A stretch of DNA of 23,374 bases from IMG/VR virus record IMGVR_UViG_3300019487_000096, positions 1 to 23,374 of that record; one strand, given 5' to 3'. The stretch comes from a virus. A program made the translations under genes and the position numbers. The notes under the pieces were generated by a model, which saw only the letters and a list, made by a program, of their open reading frames with translations, was not told the origin of the DNA and ran no database searches. This document shows, piece after piece, positions 2,729 through 21,138 of this stretch (its first letter is position 1; every line of letters begins with the position of its first letter).

Positions 2729-3844
2729 TTACTTCCCCTGCTTCGCCAGGGCTTTCAATTTGTCGGCATAGTCACTGTAGACATCCTGCTTCAATTCTTC
2801 TGGAGTGTTGTGGTACGCCTTATTGGCTGCGTCTACCGTCAGCGCCGCCTTGATCTTAGCGCGGTAGGGCTCTGATGGATCGCGTGGTTCTGGGGCCGGA
2901 GCATCGCTGCCTTGCTGGGTGGAGTCCGAAATGGAAGCGGATGCAGCGCCGTCCTCCGGCTTGTCCTCTTCGACCTTCAATTCTTCGAGCGCTAGGTGCT
3001 TCAAATTGCGGAAGGGCTCCCCACCTTTCGGATTCGGTTTCTCTTCGTAGCTGAATTGACAGCGGCGGTGGAGAAACTTGAGCGGGTCCGGCTCTAACGC
3101 TGGAGGAAAGTCATACGCGCCGAGCGTGATGCCCGCCCCATCAGTCAGTTTGAACGTCAACCGATGCGGCGTTTTCTTTTTGCCGTCCTTGGGACCGTAG
3201 CCGACCAGCTCCCCGACATAGTATTCGTCCGGTTTGGTGTCGGCTTGCAGAGTCGGAGTCCCGGCGACCCCCTCAATGACTTCCAGGTCAATCACGGGGG
3301 CTTCATCGTGTGTCATCACCCCTGACAACTCAAAGGGGAATGCTTTGCGAAGGGCCTGGGCCTCACTACATTTTCCGAGCTGATTGAACCCCATATCAAC
3401 CCATCTCCCCATCAGCTCCTTCGTTTTCGGATGCCGTTGGGCAAACTCGTTCCACCTAGCTTCGCCTACAAACGCACACCGTTCTCCATCGACCATCTTA
3501 TATACCGTCACCGTGGCTTTTTCTGGATGGTCCGGTTCATTCGGGTTCACGTCAAAGACAGGCTTTTCGCTGCCGGCGTACTTGCCTGTCCGGTCTGCGG
3601 CCAGCCGGTAGCCGTCGATGCCGGTCTGGATGCCCATGACGTAGGTATCCGCTTTGCTGTCCCATCGCTTGATCGCGTAAATCTGCTTAATGAAGGGGTC
3701 CAGGCCGGTCCGCTTGCAGGTATACATGAACAACAGAAACTCGTCGCCGGTGAGTCCTTTGGCAACGGTGCGCTTTAACAGTTCGACTTGCGCTTTGGTC
3801 CAGCGCGGGGTCAGGGCACGTTTGGCTTCAAGGGCTGTGCTCAT
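2729..3844 (-). CDS. bet: Bet/RecT-family single-strand annealing protein
   Basis: A 371-residue protein whose first 190 residues match the RecT/Bet annealing core. The core includes LLKRTVAKGLTGDEFLLFMYTC-type spacing, the GLDPF segment, the IDGYRLAADRTGKYAG block and the GKCSEAQALRKAFP block. Bet coats and anneals single-stranded ends resected by a partner exonuclease. The core is followed by an unusual 170-residue extension that includes an acidic, Ser/Asp/Glu-rich linker, making it longer than lambda Bet (261). The start at 3844 is preceded by GAGGAGG, a near-perfect ribosome-binding site. The likely exonuclease partner is encoded about 1 kb upstream in the same operon, with a DUF5131 gene in between. 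Confidence 0.93.
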   Translation of the reverse strand: MSTALEAKRALTPRWTKAQVELLKRTVAKGLTGDEFLLFMYTCKRTGLDPFIKQIYAIKRWDSKADTYVMGIQTGIDGYRLAADRTGKYAGSEKPVFDVNPNEPDHPEKATVTVYKMVDGERCAFVGEARWNEFAQRHPKTKELMGRWVDMGFNQLGKCSEAQALRKAFPFELSGVMTHDEAPVIDLEVIEGVAGTPTLQADTKPDEYYVGELVGYGPKDGKKKTPHRLTFKLTDGAGITLGAYDFPPALEPDPLKFLHRRCQFSYEEKPNPKGGEPFRNLKHLALEELKVEEDKPEDGAASASISDSTQQGSDAPAPEPRDPSEPYRAKIKAALTVDAANKAYHNTPEELKQDVYSDYADKLKALAKQGK

Positions 3845-3856
3845 GGTTCCTCCTCT

Positions 3857-4717
3857 TTAGTTTGGAAATTCGCGTACTCGCAGATCCAGCGGCCATTCAG
3901 AGGGATCGCCGCCTTTGGAGTGCCGATTCAACCGATAGCTATGCTGATCCAACCATCGTGTTCCTCCGTCATGTGCCCATCTACTTCCTAACTGCTTCAC
4001 AAATACAGGCACCTTCGCGGCCTGGCATTGCTGAACCGCTGACCGAATCCACGCCACGTCACAAGGCCGCGCCTTCGGCCCAGACTCGCCGCCGACGATG
4101 AGCCAGTCGATACGAGGGAATGAAGGATCGTGTTCATGAAAGGGATCAAGCCAACAGCGATTATGTTGAAACTGAACCAGCCCCAGCGCGGGCTCATAAC
4201 TCACAAACCGCACGGCGGCTGGTGTCTGGAGGAGCAGCGGAATCCGCTCATCGGCCGTCGCTTGATCTTCCACTGAGACGCCGAGCCAGACATTTTTCAA
4301 GAACCCGCCAGTAAGACACATTGCTATAGGGAATTTAAGAGAAGGATTAACGAGTAGATCGAGCATCCTCTTTGGCCGTTTAGTCAAGACCTGGAACTCG
4401 CATTGTTGTGCCCACGCCATACAGATAAACACCTTCGCAATCCATTCCATGGGAATCTGCTCGTGAAACAAATCCGTCATGTCACACACGAACACCTTGC
4501 GTGGATTCTTCCAGTGTAACGGCTGCTCCAGAATCTTCTCGTCCAGCCGAAACGTGTCCGCGCCGGGCTTGTAGGCCGGTCCGCCCCAGCGGACATTCAG
4601 GCGTTCGGCATAGCAGTTGCGACACCCCTCTGAGACGTGGGTGCAGTGCCAGCGGCCTTTAGTCCCGCGAATGGGATTCCAGGTCGCGTCGGTCCATTCA
4701 ATCGTGGTCTTGCTCAT
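3857..4717 (-). CDS. DUF5131 (phage Gp37/Gp68) family protein
   Basis: A 286-residue protein with the family hallmarks: IEWTDATWNPIRG near the N-terminus, the cysteine motif C25-x6-C32-x2-C35 within HVSEGCRNCY, then VCDMTDLFHE, VLTKRPKRM, WLGVSVEDQ and GGESGPKARPC. The family, common in phages and plasmids, is usually described as radical-SAM-related. Its cellular reaction is not established to my knowledge, and I assign none. The start is set by a one-base overlap with the preceding small gene (TGATG). Its place between the nuclease and Bet genes suggests a DNA-linked role, by context only. Confidence 0.88.
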   Translation of the reverse strand: MSKTTIEWTDATWNPIRGTKGRWHCTHVSEGCRNCYAERLNVRWGGPAYKPGADTFRLDEKILEQPLHWKNPRKVFVCDMTDLFHEQIPMEWIAKVFICMAWAQQCEFQVLTKRPKRMLDLLVNPSLKFPIAMCLTGGFLKNVWLGVSVEDQATADERIPLLLQTPAAVRFVSYEPALGLVQFQHNRCWLDPFHEHDPSFPRIDWLIVGGESGPKARPCDVAWIRSAVQQCQAAKVPVFVKQLGSRWAHDGGTRWLDQHSYRLNRHSKGGDPSEWPLDLRVREFPN

Positions 4718-4878
4718 CAGCGCACCTTATGGTCGTCAATTTCTTTGGCCCAGGCAGCTTTCAGCTCCGATGGCATGGTTCCGTTCAGTCTCGGCCTGGG
4801 GAACGGCACCTTAAACGGACGCGGGAGGGGCTCGGCAATAACGATGCCGCACTGTTGACAAAACCCCTGCTCGTTCAT
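4717..4878 (-). CDS. Small CxxC protein, uncharacterised
   Basis: A 53-residue protein from the ATG at 4878, which overlaps the stop of the nuclease gene (ATGA). It has one CQQC pair near the N-terminus (residues 7-10), a Pro/Arg-rich middle (PRPFKVPFPRPR) and a helical C-terminus. A single CxxC could form half of a zinc site in a dimer. A longer frame would run far into the nuclease gene and is not supported. No family recognised. Confidence 0.6.
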   Translation of the reverse strand: MNEQGFCQQCGIVIAEPLPRPFKVPFPRPRLNGTMPSELKAAWAKEIDDHKVR

Positions 4879-5432
4879 CGCAACCTGAATTTCAGGACGG
4901 CCAGGGCGTTTTGGAAATAGGCCCAATGGCGCGAGTCGGGTTTCACGACCACGGGGTTTACCTTGCACGCCCTTGTAACCTGGAAAATGATGAGCACATG
5001 CCGTACCTCGGAGCGCGTCATGCGATCATAGGCTTCGAGTTGAAAGTGATAGCGCTCGTCAATCGATTCGGCAAATTTCCAGTCGGCAATGATTGTGCTC
5101 TTTCTCGTCTCTTGGCAGAGCGCTCCGTCGATGGTCCCACCATAGCCGTACTTTTCACTCAGCCAGGTGACTTCCGAATCGATCTGCACGCAGCCCGTGG
5201 CGCGAAGATGATTCAAGAGCGCTTGCACGCGGGGGTTGCCGCTGGTGTCGCCCCCAGCCTTAAAACAGCGGTGCATCTCTTCATGGCAACGCTGGCCTTC
5301 GGCCAGATCCTCGGCGTCGATCCATTGCATGCCGCCAGGAAAGAGCAGGTCCAGTACGGCGCCGGTGGCGACAAAAAACCGATCGTCATGCCAGTACCCG
5401 CGAATACCCTTATGCTCGCCTGGCGTTATCAC
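4875..5432 (-). CDS. PD-(D/E)XK nuclease, Cas4/RecB-like (probable exonuclease partner of Bet)
   Basis: A 185-residue nuclease. The PD-(D/E)XK core is readable: E87 (SEVTW), D102 (GGTIDGAL), D117 and K119 (IIADWKF), then the QxxxY motif at 131-135 (QLEAY), the order seen in RecB/Cas4-type exonucleases. It probably resects double-strand ends to make substrate for Bet, as lambda Exo does for Beta. The start is the GTG at 5432, preceded by AGAGGATT at good spacing and lying 23 bases inside the end of the upstream small gene. There is no cluster of four Cys for an iron-sulphur centre, so it is not a canonical Cas4. Confidence 0.85.
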   Translation of the reverse strand: MITPGEHKGIRGYWHDDRFFVATGAVLDLLFPGGMQWIDAEDLAEGQRCHEEMHRCFKAGGDTSGNPRVQALLNHLRATGCVQIDSEVTWLSEKYGYGGTIDGALCQETRKSTIIADWKFAESIDERYHFQLEAYDRMTRSEVRHVLIIFQVTRACKVNPVVVKPDSRHWAYFQNALAVLKFRLR

Positions 5433-5559
5433 GTTTCAGAATCCTCTCTAGTTTCTCCCCGCTGATTGGGCGGATGCCGAGCTTGCTCATCCGCCGAGCG
5501 TGCCGCGATCCAAAGCGGCGGTGCCCGGCGGCAGTGGAGCGGAATTGCTTGAACTTCAT
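5410..5559 (-). CDS. Small basic protein, uncharacterised
   Basis: A 49-residue, strongly basic protein (FRSTAAGHRRFGSRHARR) ending in a predicted helix (SGEKLERILKR). The ATG at 5559 overlaps the preceding stop (ATGA) and its own end overlaps the nuclease start. Charge suggests nucleic-acid contact, but no fold is recognised. It might serve mainly as a coupling link in the operon. Confidence 0.55.
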   Translation of the reverse strand: MKFKQFRSTAAGHRRFGSRHARRMSKLGIRPISGEKLERILKRDNARRA

Positions 5560-6224
5560 CCGCTCACCGCTTGGCTGGGCACATCGTACAGTTCGAGCGC
5601 CGGCGTCAATCCAGACTTCGCGGCACTCATCGCTCGCGCCGTGTCCAGCACCCATACAGTGTCAGGGAGTTCCTGAAGCACGGCGTGCTCGGAGCGATAA
5701 ATCTTCTGCTCATATTTCTGACAGTAGGCGGGCAGTTTGGTGACGCGCCAGTTCTTCACCAGGCGCATGGTGATGGTGGGACCTCCGTCGCTTTTTACGC
5801 TCGTTTGAGGGCTGGCAATGATCTTGGGTGGGGCGACGCTTTCAGGATCTTTTCCTTTGTCAATCGCCTCCTGCACTTTGGTTTCATGCTTCTGATTCTC
5901 GAGGTCTTGCCGTTCCTTGGCCTTCTGCTGTTGGTCCATGAACCATCGGCCCGTGCCCTGCTTGACGCGGACCTCCTCCGACATCAGGGGCTCTAAAACC
6001 TTTTCTTCCTTGCTGCGGACGGCGTTCAGTGCTTGGCGGATGGGCTTCTTGAGACTTTCAAAAAACTCCTCAACCTTCTTCCGGCGAACCACGAGCTGGC
6101 CGATCCATTGCATTCCTACTTCGTAGTCCTCTTGCGTCTTAATCTGTTTGGGCGCGGCACCAATCACGGCAATCACGCGCTGCGCGGCATCTTGTTCGCT
6201 GGTGATGGGAGTATTCAGGTCCAT
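5556..6224 (-). CDS. Coiled-coil phage protein of the recombination cassette
   Basis: A 222-residue protein with a long charged helical stretch (residues about 35-125; WIGQLVVRRKKVEEFFESLK, then repeated K/E/Q heptad-like segments). A compact C-terminal part follows (VKNWRVTK, then a closing segment ending in LELYDVP). Proteins of this layout, with a helix built around 'kkieeffdplkk' and a C-terminal 'p.l...v', often sit beside recT/bet and exonuclease genes in phages. Their function is not established. AAAGGAG lies seven bases before the ATG at 6224, fixing the start and excluding a longer frame. Its end overlaps the small basic gene. Confidence 0.72.
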   Translation of the reverse strand: MDLNTPITSEQDAAQRVIAVIGAAPKQIKTQEDYEVGMQWIGQLVVRRKKVEEFFESLKKPIRQALNAVRSKEEKVLEPLMSEEVRVKQGTGRWFMDQQQKAKERQDLENQKHETKVQEAIDKGKDPESVAPPKIIASPQTSVKSDGGPTITMRLVKNWRVTKLPAYCQKYEQKIYRSEHAVLQELPDTVWVLDTARAMSAAKSGLTPALELYDVPSQAVSG

Positions 6225-9849: not shown

Positions 9850-10014
9850 GAAGAGGGGAAGGGGAAAAGAGAAGGGGGGTTAGCTGGTGGTCTTATACCT
9901 CCTCCCTCGCGTTGCAGTTTGGGTGTTTCCCACCGTTCACACGGTCCGGCCTTTTTCTTTTTTTTCCTTTTTTCTTTTTCTGACATTAGAAGAGGCGAGT
10001 GAAAAGAAAAAAAA
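9850..10014. other. Non-coding stretch with long purine and pyrimidine tracts
   Basis: An unbroken 30-base purine run (9850-9879, with GGGG clusters) is followed by an unbroken 32-base pyrimidine run (9950-9981, mostly T) and an A-rich purine run (10001-10014). The T-rich part could be the unwinding region of the origin or pair with the A-rich run just before the 10031 gene. A 5-bp hairpin (9932-9945) lies just before the T tract and could be a weak terminator. No gene is supported between 9532 and 10030. Confidence 0.5.
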
Positions 10015-10030
10015 TGGCGGTGAACCGACG

Positions 10031-10858
10031 ATGCTGAACATTTTATCCTTGGGAGCCGGCGTCCAATCCTCCACGGTGTTGTTGTTATCGTGCCGGGGAG
10101 AGCTACCCAAGCTCGACGCGGCCATCTTTGCCGACACGCAATGGGAGCCGAAAGCGGTCTACCAATGGTTGGATGAGGTATTGGAGCCGGAAGCTAAGCG
10201 TGGTGGAATTCCATTGTATCGGGTGACCAAGGGGAACATTCGGGCGGATGCGCTGCGGTCACGCACGCGGGTGGATGAATATAAGCGGATAGAGGGCGGG
10301 CGCTGGGCTTCGATGCCACTGTACACGAAATTGACCGAGCAAGAGTCAGAAGGGCAAATTCGACGGCAATGCACCAAGGAATACAAAATTGACCCCATCG
10401 GCAAGAAGATCCGTGAACTCTGGGGAGAGGCGCCGCGCACCACAGGCTGTGTCAGCCAATGGATGGGGATTTCCGGGGATGAACTCCGGCGCGTCCGCAC
10501 CTCTCGAAACTATTGGATCATGTTTTATTATCCCCTGATTTTTGCGTTCGACCGGCCGTGGCATCGGCATGATTGTCAGAATTGGCTGAAGAAGGCCGGC
10601 TACCCTGACGCCCCGCGTTCCGCCTGTTTGGGCTGTCCGTATCACACCAACGACGAGTGGCGCGACATCCAACGCCGCCCCGAAGAATGGCAGGACGTGA
10701 TGGAGTTCGATGCCAGCATTCGGCATATCGCCGGTCTGACCGCCGATGCCTATCTCCACCGTTCCTGCCAGCCGCTCACGCAGATTGATTTCCGCTCTCC
10801 AGAAGAGAAAGGCCAACAGAACTGGCTGGAGGAATGTGAGGGCATGTGCGGGGTGTAG
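10031..10858 (+). CDS. PAPS-reductase-like adenine nucleotide alpha-hydrolase superfamily protein
   Basis: A 275-residue protein of the PP-loop ATP pyrophosphatase superfamily. The loop is LSLGAGVQSS (residues 5-14), followed by DAAIFADTQWEPKAVYQWLD, the usual strand-D-T arrangement. A downstream SACLGCPYH and a QCTKEYKI supply Cys residues as in DndC and PAPS-reductase relatives. Phage members of this group are common, but their substrate is unknown; sulphate reduction is unlikely in isolation. Linked roles include thiolation or nucleotide modification, none shown here. The ATG at 10031 starts exactly at the conserved core. The frame upstream crosses low-complexity DNA and is not used. Confidence 0.82.
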   Translation: MLNILSLGAGVQSSTVLLLSCRGELPKLDAAIFADTQWEPKAVYQWLDEVLEPEAKRGGIPLYRVTKGNIRADALRSRTRVDEYKRIEGGRWASMPLYTKLTEQESEGQIRRQCTKEYKIDPIGKKIRELWGEAPRTTGCVSQWMGISGDELRRVRTSRNYWIMFYYPLIFAFDRPWHRHDCQNWLKKAGYPDAPRSACLGCPYHTNDEWRDIQRRPEEWQDVMEFDASIRHIAGLTADAYLHRSCQPLTQIDFRSPEEKGQQNWLEECEGMCGV

Positions 10859-13241: not shown

Positions 13242-13771
13242 AGAACACCGACCTGCCCGGCCATCAGCTATTGCGCCAAAAAGGGGCGCAAGCCCTTCAG
13301 GCGACGATTCACAAGATGCAAAAGAGCGGTAAGAGCATCAGCGAAATCGCGTCGGAGCTGAAACTGGCGAAGGGGCATGCGGTGCATTACTTGTACGGGC
13401 GTCGGGGGAAAAAGATGCTCCGCAAGTTCTGCGATGAAACGACGATTGATTGCATATTAGTGATTTCCGAAGGGTTGGAGCTGCTGCGGAACGAGATGGC
13501 GCAGTTGAAAGTGAAAAGTTACCTCGGGGAAGCGGGCATGACGGTGCCGGACTACGGAAGTCTGCTGCGCTCTATGCAGAAAACACTCGAAATTTACCAG
13601 CTCATTCAGAAAAAAGGCACGCAAGGGCTGTCGCCGGTGCCGGACGAGCGGGAAGATCCCCGGTTATTGGAAGTCCGGCGCAAAGTGGAGGAGATTTTCG
13701 ACGGGGCGGCGGAAGACACGGATGTGGTGACGGAGCTGAACCCCGATGAGCCGAGGCATCGGCCCACATGA
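13238..13771 (+). CDS. Probable small terminase subunit
   Basis: A 177-residue protein directly upstream of the terminase ATPase gene and overlapping it by four bases. An N-terminal helix-turn-helix (residues 30-60, SGKSISEIASELKLAKGHAV) would recognise the packaging site. A long helical oligomerisation region (residues 80-135) and an acidic C-terminal tail rich in Asp/Glu (FDGAAEDTDVVTELNPDE) follow. This is the usual plan of small terminases, which form a ring that loads DNA onto the large subunit. Assignment relies on layout and position, not on a conserved motif. Confidence 0.7.
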   Translation: MKNTDLPGHQLLRQKGAQALQATIHKMQKSGKSISEIASELKLAKGHAVHYLYGRRGKKMLRKFCDETTIDCILVISEGLELLRNEMAQLKVKSYLGEAGMTVPDYGSLLRSMQKTLEIYQLIQKKGTQGLSPVPDEREDPRLLEVRRKVEEIFDGAAEDTDVVTELNPDEPRHRPT

Positions 13772-14388
13772 AAGAAGGCGACCGCTATCTGGCCCGCTTT
13801 AAGCAGAACATTCCAGAGTTGATTCTGGAAACGGGGTGGTTTCTCACCCGCGATGAGGACCAGCCCGATCAGCCGCCGCGTCCCCTGCCCGATAAACCCT
13901 ATCTCCGGTATTTGTTGCGAGAATACACGAAATACCGGCGCGTGTTGGTCCCGAAAAGCCGGCAGATTCTCGTCACCTGGAGCTGGGTGGCCTACGCGCT
14001 CGCGCTGTGTCTCCTCCGTCAGCATCTCCTTATTATCTATCAGACCAAACGCGAAGAGGATTCGGTGGGCTTTATGAACCGGGTCCATTTTATGTATCGG
14101 CACTTCCCCGACTGGCTGCGCGACACACGGCCGGCGGTGCTGGACAATACCTCCAAGATTGAGTTTCCGAAAACGGATAATCGCTTTTGGGGGATTCCGC
14201 AAGGCGCCGACATCATCCGGTCGAATACCGTGTCCCTCTTCCTCGCGGATGAAGTCAATTTTCAGCCGAACGCCAAAGCGTCCCTCCGAGCGGCGATGCC
14301 GTCCGTGGGCAGAAACGGCCAGGCGATCTGGGCCTCCAGCGCCGCCGCTGGCGGGCTGATGATTAACCTGATTCATGCGGACTGGTGA
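13768..14388 (+). CDS. Large terminase, ATPase half (split gene)
   Basis: A 206-residue protein that matches only the ATPase part of a large terminase. VPKSRQILVTWSW is the adenine/Walker A-like region, VSLFLADEVNF carries the Walker B Asp and catalytic Glu, and AIWASSAAAGGLM is the coupling motif. It powers DNA translocation into the prohead. A normal large terminase would continue directly into the nuclease domain. Here a TGA follows LIHADW, and the nuclease domain is encoded separately about 1 kb downstream. Its stop overlaps the methyltransferase start (TGATG). The key motifs look intact, so the split is probably functional. Confidence 0.88.
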   Translation: MKEGDRYLARFKQNIPELILETGWFLTRDEDQPDQPPRPLPDKPYLRYLLREYTKYRRVLVPKSRQILVTWSWVAYALALCLLRQHLLIIYQTKREEDSVGFMNRVHFMYRHFPDWLRDTRPAVLDNTSKIEFPKTDNRFWGIPQGADIIRSNTVSLFLADEVNFQPNAKASLRAAMPSVGRNGQAIWASSAAAGGLMINLIHADW

Positions 14389-15026
14389 TGAAGTCATATT
14401 ATGAACAATCTGGGATCACGATTTATCATGGTGACTGTCGTGAGGTTGCACCTTGTGTGTCTGCCCAGACAGTAATTACCGATCCTGTATGGCCTAACTC
14501 TAAAGGCGGACTTATTGGGCAAGATCGAGCCTATGAGTTGTTTGTCGAAATGATTGGCTGTCTCTCGCCAGTCGTTGATAGAGTTGCCGTCCATTTATCC
14601 TGTGACTCTGACCCACTGTTTCTTTTCCCATTGAAGTACCGCTTTGAATTTTTCCGCGTTGTCTGGCTAGAGATGGCGAGACCCAATTATGTAGGCCGAC
14701 TTCTGAATGGGAGTGACGTTGCCTATCTCTGGGGTGTTGTTCCGCGATCTGTCCCTGGTCAACATATCATTCCCGGTAAAACTATCTGCACGTCATCCAA
14801 TGGAAAGGAGACGAGCCATCCATGTCCACGCAAATATAGTCATGTCCAATGGCTGGTAAAATGGTGGAGTGAGCAAACCGATACTATCCTTGACCCTTTT
14901 ATGGGTTCTGGAACGACATTACTAGCGGCCAAGAATCTTGGACGCAAGGCTGTCGGCATTGAGATTGAAGAAAAGTTTTGTGAGGTTGCCGCCAAACGAT
15001 TGACACAAGAAGTGTTGCCGCTATGA
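14388..15026 (+). CDS. Orphan DNA methyltransferase (amino-MTase, DPVW type)
   Basis: A 212-residue amino-methyltransferase. Motif IV is D32-P-V-W in TDPVWPN, a variant of DPPW/DPPY, and motif I is DPFMGSGTTLLAA (residues 169-181), followed by GIEIEEKFCEVAAKRL. The order IV before I marks the beta class, which methylates N6-adenine or N4-cytosine. No restriction enzyme is encoded beside it. The target site is unknown. The gene sits between the two halves of the large terminase and its DNA looks more AT-rich than the terminase genes, suggesting later acquisition. Likely role: protection of phage DNA from host restriction. A GTG at 14385 is an alternative start. Confidence 0.88.
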   Translation: MKSYYEQSGITIYHGDCREVAPCVSAQTVITDPVWPNSKGGLIGQDRAYELFVEMIGCLSPVVDRVAVHLSCDSDPLFLFPLKYRFEFFRVVWLEMARPNYVGRLLNGSDVAYLWGVVPRSVPGQHIIPGKTICTSSNGKETSHPCPRKYSHVQWLVKWWSEQTDTILDPFMGSGTTLLAAKNLGRKAVGIEIEEKFCEVAAKRLTQEVLPL

Positions 15027-15244: not shown

Positions 15245-15424
15245 ATGCAGCCGGGCGAGAGCAAGGCACAGATTGGCGATCCCCTGCCGCACGTCATTCG
15301 TCGGCTGTCGGACAACGCACCCTATCGAGTGTTGTATTGCTCATGTTGTCAGACACTTTTTAAGCAACTCGTGACGGACAACGTGGCCCGGGAACAAGAA
15401 CAAACACGCGACTCATTATGGTAA
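15245..15424 (+). CDS. Small Cys-containing protein inside the split terminase
   Basis: A 59-residue protein starting at the first base after the previous stop. It has a CSCC cluster (residues 32-35, RVLYCSCCQTLFK), which could be half of a metal site, and a Gln/Glu-rich end. The stop lies seven bases past the start of the terminase nuclease gene, so the two overlap. No family recognised, and no ribosome-binding site is evident. Confidence 0.5.
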   Translation: MQPGESKAQIGDPLPHVIRRLSDNAPYRVLYCSCCQTLFKQLVTDNVAREQEQTRDSLW

Positions 15425-16623
15425 GCGATCACGTTCCAGGATTTTTGGAACCAGAGGAGGAGCCGTTTCGGCACCCGGATAAACTCTGCCCGGCCTGCCG
15501 GCGTGTCCTTTTCTATGGGGCGTTTGACACGAATCAATGGTCCAGTGACGGCTACTATACCTACTGCAAGGATTGCCGCGCGCAAAAGGCGAAAGAGAAA
15601 GCCAAGCCACCGCCGACGCTCGATACCGTCCCGACGCCCGCTGCCGACCCGCAAACGCCACTCAGTAAAATCCCGCCCGGCATCCTGAACGGCATTCGCA
15701 CGCCAGAGACCGTTGAGCAACCGATGGAGGGCGTGTGGTCTTGGAACACGCCGAAAGGCTGGCGCGTGGTGGCTGTTCATTATACAGCCGATCCTGACAA
15801 GCGCCCTGGCACAAAAAGCGGGGATGACTGGATCAAACTGAAAAAAGCAGACTCGTCCGAGCGTGATTGGAAGCGGGAATATGAACTCGACCACACGATT
15901 TCGGAAGGCGAGCCGTTCTATGCGACATTCAACCGGCGAGTGCATGTGCAGCGGTGCGTGTATGACCCCACGCGGCCCCTGCTACGCGGCTGGGACTTCG
16001 GCCGCGCCCATCCCGCCGTGGTGATCGGGCAACTGGACGACAAAGCCAAGCTCAGGATTCTCTTTTCTCAGATTTACACTAATCTGACGATTTTCCAGCT
16101 CGCGCCGATTGTGCTGGCTGAAACCGCGATGCGGTTTCCCGATGCCAAGGTGCGGGACTACGGCGATCCAGCGGGCTCCCAAGAGACGGACAAGGGGGCG
16201 ACCACCATGATTCTCCTCCAGCACTTCAAAATCACCCTGAACTATCGCTTCAGTTGGATTGAAGAAGGCACCAAAATGATCGACCAGAAGCTCCGCGTGC
16301 AGGAAGATGGGCTCCCAGGGCTGTTGATTGATCCCGAAAACAATGACGAACTCATTGAGGGCTTTGAGAGCGGGTATTTGCTGGATACTGGCGCCAGTGG
16401 GAAGGATAAAGAGGGACGGCTGAAAAATTCTCCTAAGAAAGACGGCTGGTTCGATCATGTGCTCGACGCGCTGCGGTACATGGTCGTCAATCTGTTCACG
16501 ATGTTGCCCGATGCCGAGTCGGAGCAGGACAAAGCTTGGGAGAAAATCGGGCTTTGGCGAACGAATGAGCAGCACGCGGCCCGGAAAGCCGATCAAGAAC
16601 CATTGGAGGAATTCAGCGCGTGA
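15418..16623 (+). CDS. Large terminase, nuclease half, with N-terminal zinc-ribbon
   Basis: A 401-residue protein. From about residue 85 it matches the C-terminal part of large terminases: GVWSWNTPKGWRVVAVHYTADPDK leads in (in pieces), then the RNase H-like nuclease with D193 (RGWDFG), D250 (RDYGDPAG) and D346/D350 (DHVLDALRY). It cuts concatemeric DNA during packaging. The first 60 residues are not terminase: CPAC (24-27) and CKDC (50-53) bracket YGAFDTNQWSSDGYYTY, a zinc-ribbon like those next to endonuclease VII/HNH domains. A Pro-rich linker joins the two. The start overlaps the upstream gene and lacks a ribosome-binding site, so coupling is likely. Confidence 0.88.
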   Translation: MVSDHVPGFLEPEEEPFRHPDKLCPACRRVLFYGAFDTNQWSSDGYYTYCKDCRAQKAKEKAKPPPTLDTVPTPAADPQTPLSKIPPGILNGIRTPETVEQPMEGVWSWNTPKGWRVVAVHYTADPDKRPGTKSGDDWIKLKKADSSERDWKREYELDHTISEGEPFYATFNRRVHVQRCVYDPTRPLLRGWDFGRAHPAVVIGQLDDKAKLRILFSQIYTNLTIFQLAPIVLAETAMRFPDAKVRDYGDPAGSQETDKGATTMILLQHFKITLNYRFSWIEEGTKMIDQKLRVQEDGLPGLLIDPENNDELIEGFESGYLLDTGASGKDKEGRLKNSPKKDGWFDHVLDALRYMVVNLFTMLPDAESEQDKAWEKIGLWRTNEQHAARKADQEPLEEFSA

Positions 16624-18138: not shown

Positions 18139-21138
18139 ATGACCAAAAAGTTCACCGACGAGGAACTAGTCAGTGAAGTTCAACAAGAATTGAACCGCTC
18201 TCGGTATCTCCGCTTCGCCTTCGAGCGTGATTGGTACGGCAACCTCCTCTTCCGGCAAGGCCATCAGTGGATCGTCTGGGATGAAACCGGCCGGCGCTTC
18301 CGTCAAAAGAAACTAAAACCGTGGATTCCCCAGCCCGTCAGCAATCGGTACGCCTCGGTGCTTGGTGCGCTCGAAGCGTTGTTGCTGCGCGTGGAGCCGG
18401 TGATGCAATGGCGCTCGGCGGATCAAAACAACGAAACGCTGAAGTCTGTGGCGGAAACCTCCACGCAGCTCCTCGACCGGATTAAAGAGCAAACCTACTT
18501 TCAATTCTTCAGGCAAACCCTCGCGTCCTGGTTGACCTACAGCGGTAACGCCTATCTGGTCAACTATTACGATGAGGCAGGCGGTATTCCGATCAACGTC
18601 CCGTTATACAAATGTAAGCAGTGCGAAGCCGTGGATCTGCCGACTGGCTTTCAGGATGGCTGTGCGAAGTGCGGGCACCGGGAGTACGGATATGATGTTG
18701 ATCCCGCAACGGGTGTGCCGCGAGAAATGAGTTTTACCGGCGGGTCCATTCGGAGTGAAGTCGGGACACCCTTTGAAGTGTTCTACGATTTCAGCGTGAC
18801 GGAGTGGCATCGACAACCGTATGTCTTTCGCGTGAAGGACCGCTCGCTTGACTATTTCAGGCGGTATGGAGCGCGGGGGGCGAAGGTCCAGCACGGCGGC
18901 GCCTCCACCTTGGGGGAGTTTTATTCCAGCGCCCTTGCGTATATGGCGAGCGGCCCTGGCATCAATCCGGCCGCTGGGCAAGTGGTCCGGCGCGAAGGCA
19001 ACGCCGAGATTTCCTATTATCGTCGGCCAGACGACCGCTATCCCGATGGATTGTTTGCGATCATCGGCGGCGATCAGTTGTTAGTGAAAGAAGAGAGCCT
19101 ACCGAAAGACCACAAGGGCGAGCGGTTCATCCCTGTCACGCAATTCCTGTTCGATCCGATCCCAGGCTCCGCTGTTGGAAAGACCGTGGCGAGCGATCTT
19201 CGGCCGAAGCAGAAGCAGCGCAATGAGCTGGAGTCCTTGATCCAACTCATTACAATGCGGATGGCAAACCCGGTCTGGATCATCCCTTACGGAACCGATG
19301 TGGAAGGCTTCAGCGGACAACCGGGGGCAGTGCTCAAGGCGATTCAACTGGCGCCGAACGTGAACAGTAACCCGCAACGGCTACCCGGTGAAAACGTCCC
19401 ATCCTCAGTCATGGCCTGGCTCGACAAAATCGATCAAGACATGGAAGAAATTGCCTGCCTCACGGGCGATCAGGCGATTCCATGTCTTGACGGCCAAATG
19501 CGCACGATGCGGCAGTTGTCGGATGAATACCCGAATGGTGGCGTCTGGGTCTACGGATTTGACACTCAACAGATGCGTGTCGTCCCGACAAAAGTGAGAA
19601 AGGCGTGGCGAACAGCGATCAAATCGTGTGTACGTGTTCAATTCAAAGAGGGCACAAGCATCGACTGCACGACAGACCATCTGTTTTTGACGTGGGATCG
19701 TGGTTATATTCGTGCTGACGAATTGCGCCATGACGACTCGATTGTCCCACTCATTCTCCACTCATCGAAGTTCGGCTACCTCTCTGTCGCACAGCCAGTT
19801 GACCGGCGTGACGACCCTGTGCATCGCATGGTTGCTTACGCGCTCCTTGGTCTTAAGCGAGGTCAGTCAAAGTTAGACGTTCACCACAAAAACGGCGATG
19901 TGCAGGATAATGACCCGGACAACCTCGAGGTACTGACACGCCGTGAGCACATTCTGCGGCTCCCTCCGGAAAAGCGATCAAAACTTCGTCATCCCTGGAC
20001 GCCAGAGAGCAAGGCCAAGCTATCAGCTTCGCTCAAACTCCGGTGGCAATCGTGGTCTACTGGCCAGCGCCAGCATCATGTTGCACGTATGGTGAGAGGC
20101 GTCTGCAAACATCCAGATGCCGTTAAGAAATGGACGGGTCGGTTAAACCATCGTGTACTGTCGGTTGTGGCTATCGGGAGCTGCGAGGTGTTTGATTTGC
20201 AGACGGATAGCCATAACTTTGGAACGGCCGCCGGCGTGTTCGTTCACAATTCGGTCTTTGAAGTGCTGAAGGGCCAAGCCCCGACCGGCATTACCGCGGG
20301 CTATGCCTTACGGTTATTGACCGAGCGCGGGCAGTCCCGGTGGGGGCCGCTCTTTCAGCGTTGGGAAAACGGGTTTGTGATGTGGGCGACTCAAGTGACG
20401 GCGTTTGCCAAGGAATGGATGCCTGCCGATCAGATTCTTGAACTGCTGGGCGATCATGCCGATTGGGAAGTGCGGAAGTTCAAAGAAGAATCGACGGCCG
20501 GCTTAAATCTCCGCGTCGAAGCCGGCTCGAATCGTCCGCAATCGGCGCTGACCGAGCAGGCGATGGTCGATCAGTTCATTTCTCAGGGCATCATCGACCA
20601 CACTGACCCGAACAACAAGGCCGAAATCCTCCGCACGGCCGGCCTGAGCAAATACGATCAGTTGAGCGATTGGGATATGAAGGACGCGGCCCGCGAGGAG
20701 GAAGCCTTTTACAAAATCGCGCTGGAATACAATCTTGGGCAGTTCGTGCAAGCCGCCGAACAGGCCGTACAGGCTGGCAACCCAGAGGCGATGCAGCTCC
20801 AACAGGAAGCCCAAATGTTGGCGCAGAGCGGGGTGCGCTTTCGAGAAACCGTGGACAACCATCAGATCCACCTGTGGGCGCACAAGCGCTTTGCGAAAAC
20901 GGATCGGTTTTTCAAACTCTCAGCGGAGTGGCAAGCGGTATGGCTCAAACATTCCGAGCAGCATGCGATGCGGCTGATGCAAGAGGCCCAGCAAACCGCC
21001 ATGATGAGTGCGGCGGCGCCGATGAAACCGAACCCGTCGATGAACGGCAAACCGCCAGCGAAGCAGCCGGAGAATCTTGCGGCGACCCCAGATGGCGGGC
21101 ACATTGCGAATCCGGCGAGTATGGGAGCCGCTGCGTAG
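18139..21138 (+). CDS. Portal protein precursor, interrupted by an intein
   Basis: A 999-residue frame. Removing the intein (residues 440-704) leaves a 734-residue portal protein, a normal size. The ring it forms is the DNA gateway at one capsid vertex. The exteins join as DMEEIA-SVFEVLKGQAPTG, restoring the common portal motif ending in GQAPsG. The N-terminal part has WYGNLLFRQGHQWIVWDE, and residues 159-178 carry an unusual zinc-ribbon (CKQC and CAKC). The C-terminal part is helical and Gln-rich. The ATG at 18139 has no clear ribosome-binding site (AGGGCACC is distant). Function requires protein splicing. A promoter candidate lies just upstream. Confidence 0.9.
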   Translation: MTKKFTDEELVSEVQQELNRSRYLRFAFERDWYGNLLFRQGHQWIVWDETGRRFRQKKLKPWIPQPVSNRYASVLGALEALLLRVEPVMQWRSADQNNETLKSVAETSTQLLDRIKEQTYFQFFRQTLASWLTYSGNAYLVNYYDEAGGIPINVPLYKCKQCEAVDLPTGFQDGCAKCGHREYGYDVDPATGVPREMSFTGGSIRSEVGTPFEVFYDFSVTEWHRQPYVFRVKDRSLDYFRRYGARGAKVQHGGASTLGEFYSSALAYMASGPGINPAAGQVVRREGNAEISYYRRPDDRYPDGLFAIIGGDQLLVKEESLPKDHKGERFIPVTQFLFDPIPGSAVGKTVASDLRPKQKQRNELESLIQLITMRMANPVWIIPYGTDVEGFSGQPGAVLKAIQLAPNVNSNPQRLPGENVPSSVMAWLDKIDQDMEEIACLTGDQAIPCLDGQMRTMRQLSDEYPNGGVWVYGFDTQQMRVVPTKVRKAWRTAIKSCVRVQFKEGTSIDCTTDHLFLTWDRGYIRADELRHDDSIVPLILHSSKFGYLSVAQPVDRRDDPVHRMVAYALLGLKRGQSKLDVHHKNGDVQDNDPDNLEVLTRREHILRLPPEKRSKLRHPWTPESKAKLSASLKLRWQSWSTGQRQHHVARMVRGVCKHPDAVKKWTGRLNHRVLSVVAIGSCEVFDLQTDSHNFGTAAGVFVHNSVFEVLKGQAPTGITAGYALRLLTERGQSRWGPLFQRWENGFVMWATQVTAFAKEWMPADQILELLGDHADWEVRKFKEESTAGLNLRVEAGSNRPQSALTEQAMVDQFISQGIIDHTDPNNKAEILRTAGLSKYDQLSDWDMKDAAREEEAFYKIALEYNLGQFVQAAEQAVQAGNPEAMQLQQEAQMLAQSGVRFRETVDNHQIHLWAHKRFAKTDRFFKLSAEWQAVWLKHSEQHAMRLMQEAQQTAMMSAAAPMKPNPSMNGKPPAKQPENLAATPDGGHIANPASMGAAA
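19456..20250 (+). mobile_element. Intein with HNH homing endonuclease in the portal gene
   Basis: A 265-residue in-frame element. It begins with Cys (block A, CLTGDQAIPCLDG), has a block B TTDH with His at intein residue 75, and ends in block F/G (VFDLQTDSHNFG, then FVHN) followed by Ser as first C-extein residue. C1, HN and S+1 are the splicing residues, all present. The centre carries an HNH nuclease (DVHHKNGD, then DPDNLEVLTRREH) and a NUMOD3-like motif (PESKAKLSASLK). The nuclease would cut intein-free portal genes and spread the element. It sits at a conserved portal site, as inteins usually do. Confidence 0.93.

Follow-up and report, generated by a model that had tools for sequence, protein, structure and literature searches.

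An HNH intein at a new insertion site in the podovirus-type portal gene of an uncultivated phage

Portal (PORT) inteins are already known in cluster C1 mycobacteriophages, for example in Pio gp94 and ScoobyDoobyDoo gp84 (PMC5050341). Here, I analysed a 23374-base IMG/VR virus record of an uncultivated phage (IMGVR_UViG_3300019487_000096), the whole of which is called the window below. The C1 portal inteins resemble the intein found in the window in that they have a phage portal gene as the host and start with Cys1. However, the C1 portal is an unrelated and much larger protein with the intein near its N-terminus (HW/C..N/CRLF), and the C1 endonuclease reads as the LAGLIDADG type (AAFYLAGIIDGEGS), whereas that of the window intein is of the HNH type. 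Among annotated phages, the best full-length intein matches were a protein of Bacillus phage SP-15 (SP15_022) and the DNA polymerase of Rhodobacter phage RcKickapoo, with the C1 mycobacteriophage portals matching more weakly. These two inteins are the closest ones in sequenced isolates. They share the HNH domain, C1, and the HN end with the window intein and align with it over 88-90% of the length, but they interrupt other host genes and are only about 30% identical to it. The host gene of the SP-15 intein is probably TerL, judging from a P-loop just after the insert. The RcKickapoo intein has, by eye, a NUMOD3-like motif similar to that of the window intein. Of the inteins with solved structures, NrdJ-1 (8ubs; phmmer 1.5e-7) and the DnaB intein (1mi8; 1.6e-4) have the same Hint splicing domain, whose N- and C-terminal parts were matched as separate segments in the right order, with the nuclease region in between. 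In contrast to the window intein, they belong to other host genes, and they match it on the Hint parts only and not in the HNH region.

The features discussed in this study are listed in Table 1. The insert corresponds to residues 440-704 of the portal ORF and is in frame, and the portal without it has 734 aa. All of the coordinates and lengths given in the preliminary description of this DNA (999, 265, and 734 aa; 19456-20250) proved to be exact. Its central claim, an HNH intein in the portal gene, is borne out by intein and HNH profiles, by the catalytic positions, by an exact empty site in related portals, and by the portal fold. The GC content at third codon positions (GC3) is 0.58 in the intein versus 0.68-0.71 in the exteins.

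Table 1. Coordinates of the portal, intein, and terminase features of the window and of the multi-intein portal genes of T4-like phages
Feature	Position	Strand	Evidence or remark
Portal ORF with insert	18139-21138	+	999 aa
N-extein of portal, residues 1-439	18139..19455	+	End-to-end alignment with intein-free L015, L016, and L014; L015 model has a portal fold
Class 1 intein (265 aa) containing an HNH endonuclease	19456..20250	+	PF14890, PF13392, TIGR01445; missing from 79/79 other portals here
Block A, Cys1 nucleophile (CLTGDQAIPCLDG)	19456..19494	+	Sequence; C1 invariant in three-intein alignment
Block B, TTDH (T72..H75)	19669..19680	+	Sequence; T72 and H75 invariant in three-intein alignment
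HNH_3 endonuclease core, residues 122-165, HH..N..N..H	19819..19950	+	Pfam HNH_3 above cut-off; catalytic-type residues invariant
NUMOD3-like motif (TPESKAKLSA..)	19993..20037	+	Sub-threshold: 13.0 bits versus 20.4
Blocks F and G (CEVFDLQTDSHNF...GVFVHN), penultimate His and terminal Asn	20182..20250	+	Sequence; H264 and N265 invariant
C-extein of portal, starting with Ser+1 (SVFEVLKGQAP..)	20251..21138	+	Alignment with intein-free portals
TerL N piece	13768-14388		By eye, has Walker-type motifs plus motif III; ends ..SSAAAGGLMINLIHADW
DNA N6/N4 methyltransferase gene	14385-15026		PF01555, 1.2e-18; overlapping the N-piece stop codon
TerL C piece	15418-16623		CxxC..CxxC zinc ribbon first, then remaining ATPase and nuclease
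T4-like multi-intein portal genes (two to four apparent inteins each)	L137 1-4860; L160 1-5724; L163 1132-5112; L144 1597-5106; L151 2086-6531		Several with HNH domains

The insert was matched above the cut-offs by Intein_splicing (PF14890; E 2.9e-15, 56.8 bits, cut-off 35.8), HNH_3 (PF13392; E 6.2e-10, 39 bits, cut-off 24.8), and NCBIfam intein_Nterm (TIGR01445; 7.6e-9, 36.5 bits, cut-off 24.5). The short intein_Cterm model of the C-terminal splicing motif (TIGR01443) gave 12.6 bits, below its cut-off of 15.6. The insert was also aligned with the SP-15 and RcKickapoo inteins. The invariant columns of this three-intein alignment include C1, T72, H75, H143, H144, N152, N156, H165, H264, and N265. 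The catalytic set of a class 1 intein is complete, consisting of C1, T72/H75 of block B, H264, N265, and S+1. Thus, the splicing residues named in the preliminary description (C1, block B His, terminal HN, and S+1) are all present, and the central HNH domain that it had noticed is recovered by HNH_3. The NUMOD3-like motif, the other element claimed there, can be seen by eye, but its Pfam profile stays below the cut-off (E 0.1; Table 1). An AlphaFold model of the intein from its single sequence was uninformative (pLDDT 34) and was not used.

Might the insert be a relic, that is, a splicing-dead or cleavage-only Hint domain in a portal that has lost its function or operates in two parts? The sub-threshold score of the C-terminal motif model would agree with this, as would the lack of a close intein copy that could show selection. 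Nevertheless, a relic is very unlikely, as every nucleophile and assisting residue is intact, the reading frame stays open through all 265 intein codons, and both exteins of the portal, which is an essential gene, are conserved up to their ends in the alignment with relatives. Less credible still is an in-frame group I or group II intron, or an out-of-frame hidden HNH insertion, which is removed at the RNA level or tolerated. In-frame, stop-free insertions with HNH genes do exist in phage genes, as seen in the ShiLan element (PMC11855218). However, the ShiLan element is without a splicing domain, whereas the in-frame translation of the window insert holds a complete Hint domain and an HNH domain at significant E-values. 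The remaining two reading frames of the insert are interrupted by stops, which speaks against a hidden HNH gene in another frame. The complete Hint domain, together with the lack of any Rfam intron match within the 23374-base window, argues against an in-frame intron.

Relatives of the portal were gathered by tblastn with the spliced portal and by a profile scan of IMG/VR, with identities of roughly 25 to 73%. The resulting alignment contains 83 ORFs: that of the window, 79 others spanning the junction, and three truncated ahead of it. No residue is inserted at the junction in any of the 79 other junction-spanning ORFs, which include near-duplicate contigs and therefore represent fewer independent lineages. 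The extein junction after removal of the insert reads ..DQDMEEIA/SVFEVLKGQAPTG.. and is free of gaps in this alignment. As the preliminary description had it, removing the insert rejoins a conserved portal motif. The nearest relative, L015 (73% identity overall), has MEEMA/SVFDVLKGQAPAG at the same place. The junction sits in a conserved block between the invariant D435 and the invariant K447-G448, and conserved blocks of host genes are typical locations of inteins. At +1, many members of the close clade have Ser, and Gly prevails in distant portals; the Ser in close relatives fits the need of inteins for a nucleophile (Ser, Cys, or Thr) at this position. A misjoining of a foreign-phage intein into the portal contig during assembly is barely conceivable, even with a single metagenomic contig and no second contig with the insert, since the insert is bounded exactly by C1 and N265/S+1 within one open frame, both exteins fit the same portal, and random misassembly would not hit splice-competent boundaries.

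Is the same site occupied in other phages? Two degenerate DNA scans (HN-x-x-[FY]-[DE]-x-x-K-G) yielded 35 stretches, none of which lies in a portal gene. The viral-contig searches gave no second carrier of an intein at this portal site, and the 79 homologous portals are empty. No second copy of the window intein was found at this site, and a recent decay of its nuclease is conceivable. A profile search of genome contigs with the portal alignment found a single relative, on a Methylococcaceae MAG contig, which is too little to name a host. In one of the relatives (L016), the N-terminus of the portal (2698-2870) is encoded out of frame with the remainder, due to either a real frameshift or a sequencing error.

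For the structural context, an AlphaFold model of the L015 portal was built from 32 homologues (pLDDT 79, pTM 0.62). This model matches the known portals of Pan3, N4, P22, T7, and others at Z 23-33. By this modelled fold and by the TerL pieces encoded upstream, the product of the host gene is a tailed-phage portal protein, and the portal is of the podovirus type. The junction 439/440 falls in the last turn of a helix (423-440) in the model, which is followed by a low-confidence loop (443-451) and then by a long helix (456-496). By analogy with known portals, and judging from the order of the elements and the alignment ranges, this loop is probably the tunnel loop, which lines the DNA channel. 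If this is right, the unspliced precursor would be unlikely to assemble into a functional ring, and splicing should come before assembly.

It is almost certain that the portal gene carries a class 1 intein, presumably a mobile one, of which the splicing, its timing relative to assembly, and the homing are predicted from the sequence. A 999-aa precursor would be translated, and the Hint domain, with Cys1, the block B Thr/His, the terminal His-Asn, and Ser+1, would cut out the 265-aa intein and allow the exteins to be ligated into a 734-aa portal. Splicing would presumably take place ahead of dodecamer assembly, because the insert lies at the C-terminal end of a channel helix and immediately precedes the probable tunnel loop. 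Intein-free alleles of the site are probably cleaved by the embedded HNH domain, which would thereby spread the intein through homing.

A direct search of viral contigs with the intein gave matches in the HNH region only. Using a profile made from the three HNH inteins, I found many full-length relatives in IMG/VR, lying in TerL, RNR, DnaB, and DNA polymerase and, time and again, in T4-like portals. Related HNH inteins are present in at least seven portals of the T4-like type (PF07230, PHROG 213), namely L137, L142, L144, L150, L151, L160, and L163. Intein_splicing matched L137 and L163 three times each and L144 twice, and inteins were recognised by reading in L142, L150, L151 (two), and L160 (four apparent). 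The second intein of L137 and the last one of L160 have a class 3-like look, lacking Cys1, starting with Pro, and having a Cys in block F (YCMTV). The T4-like portal inteins resemble the window intein in the HNH type, the portal host gene, and sites flanking the helix-tunnel-loop segment. They differ from it in that the portal family is unrelated or very distant, several inteins reside in one gene, and some are without Cys1. By eye, their sites are scattered, with some on either side of the segment equivalent to that of the window and none at the same point. It is an improbable idea that the helix-tunnel-loop segment of portals is a recurrent target of one HNH intein family in widely different phages, with splicing serving as a checkpoint which delays channel formation and DNA packaging until the intein is gone.

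The earlier remark that portal inteins are less often described than terminase or polymerase inteins is fair for the literature (PMC5050341), but in IMG/VR the T4-like portals counted above already carry related HNH inteins. No precedent for this insertion site or for an intein in this portal family was found in the collections analysed or in the open-access literature searched. The window intein is a portal HNH intein that is ordinary in kind; what is new is the site and the portal family. Few portal inteins have been described, and the window adds to them one in a portal of the podovirus type, inserted at a new site. In uncultivated T4-like phages, the portal genes often contain several related HNH inteins, with as many as four apparent ones in a single gene. 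The portal gene is a regular intein host alongside TerL, polymerase, and RNR. As a consequence for annotation, intein-bearing portals appear oversized or fragmented.

The preliminary description also regarded the terminase as disrupted and the head module as a hotspot of such elements. The split of TerL is real, and the cut is, by eye, within the ATPase domain just past motif III. However, a two-gene TerL is conserved in a dozen other loci of this portal lineage: L015, L016, L017, L024-L029, and L039 have both ORFs, and their N pieces end at about the same residue as that of the window, and more distant examples are L033 and L035. This conserved arrangement rules out a second fresh insertion in the terminase and lends no support to a hotspot of splicing elements in the genome. 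In L026 and L027, the start codon of the second TerL ORF is two bases beyond the stop codon of the first, leaving no space for an intron. From L040 onwards, the relatives are further removed and have single ORFs of ~480-500 aa, in which the match to the C-piece profile starts at about residue 210. Since these relatives keep a single ORF, the split looks derived. The C piece usually opens with a CxxC..CxxC zinc ribbon similar to those of HNH/endonuclease VII proteins (weak PHROG matches). It is possible that the two-piece TerL is a "gene in pieces" left by the insertion of a homing endonuclease. No description of a split TerL in this clade was found in the literature. Among the loci examined, a methyltransferase gene lies between the TerL pieces in the window only.

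In L014 (MW202554, Manatee Spring phage), an ATPase ORF (3172-4827) has, by eye, an intein-like insert (..YQFAC..LSRNC..), and a separate nuclease ORF follows (5020-5709); both are annotated as terminase large subunit. Elsewhere in the window, a RecT-like annealing protein (2729-3844, minus strand), a Gp37/Gp68-like protein (3857-4717, minus strand), and a PAPS-reductase-like protein (9887-10858, plus strand) were tentatively assigned by eye.
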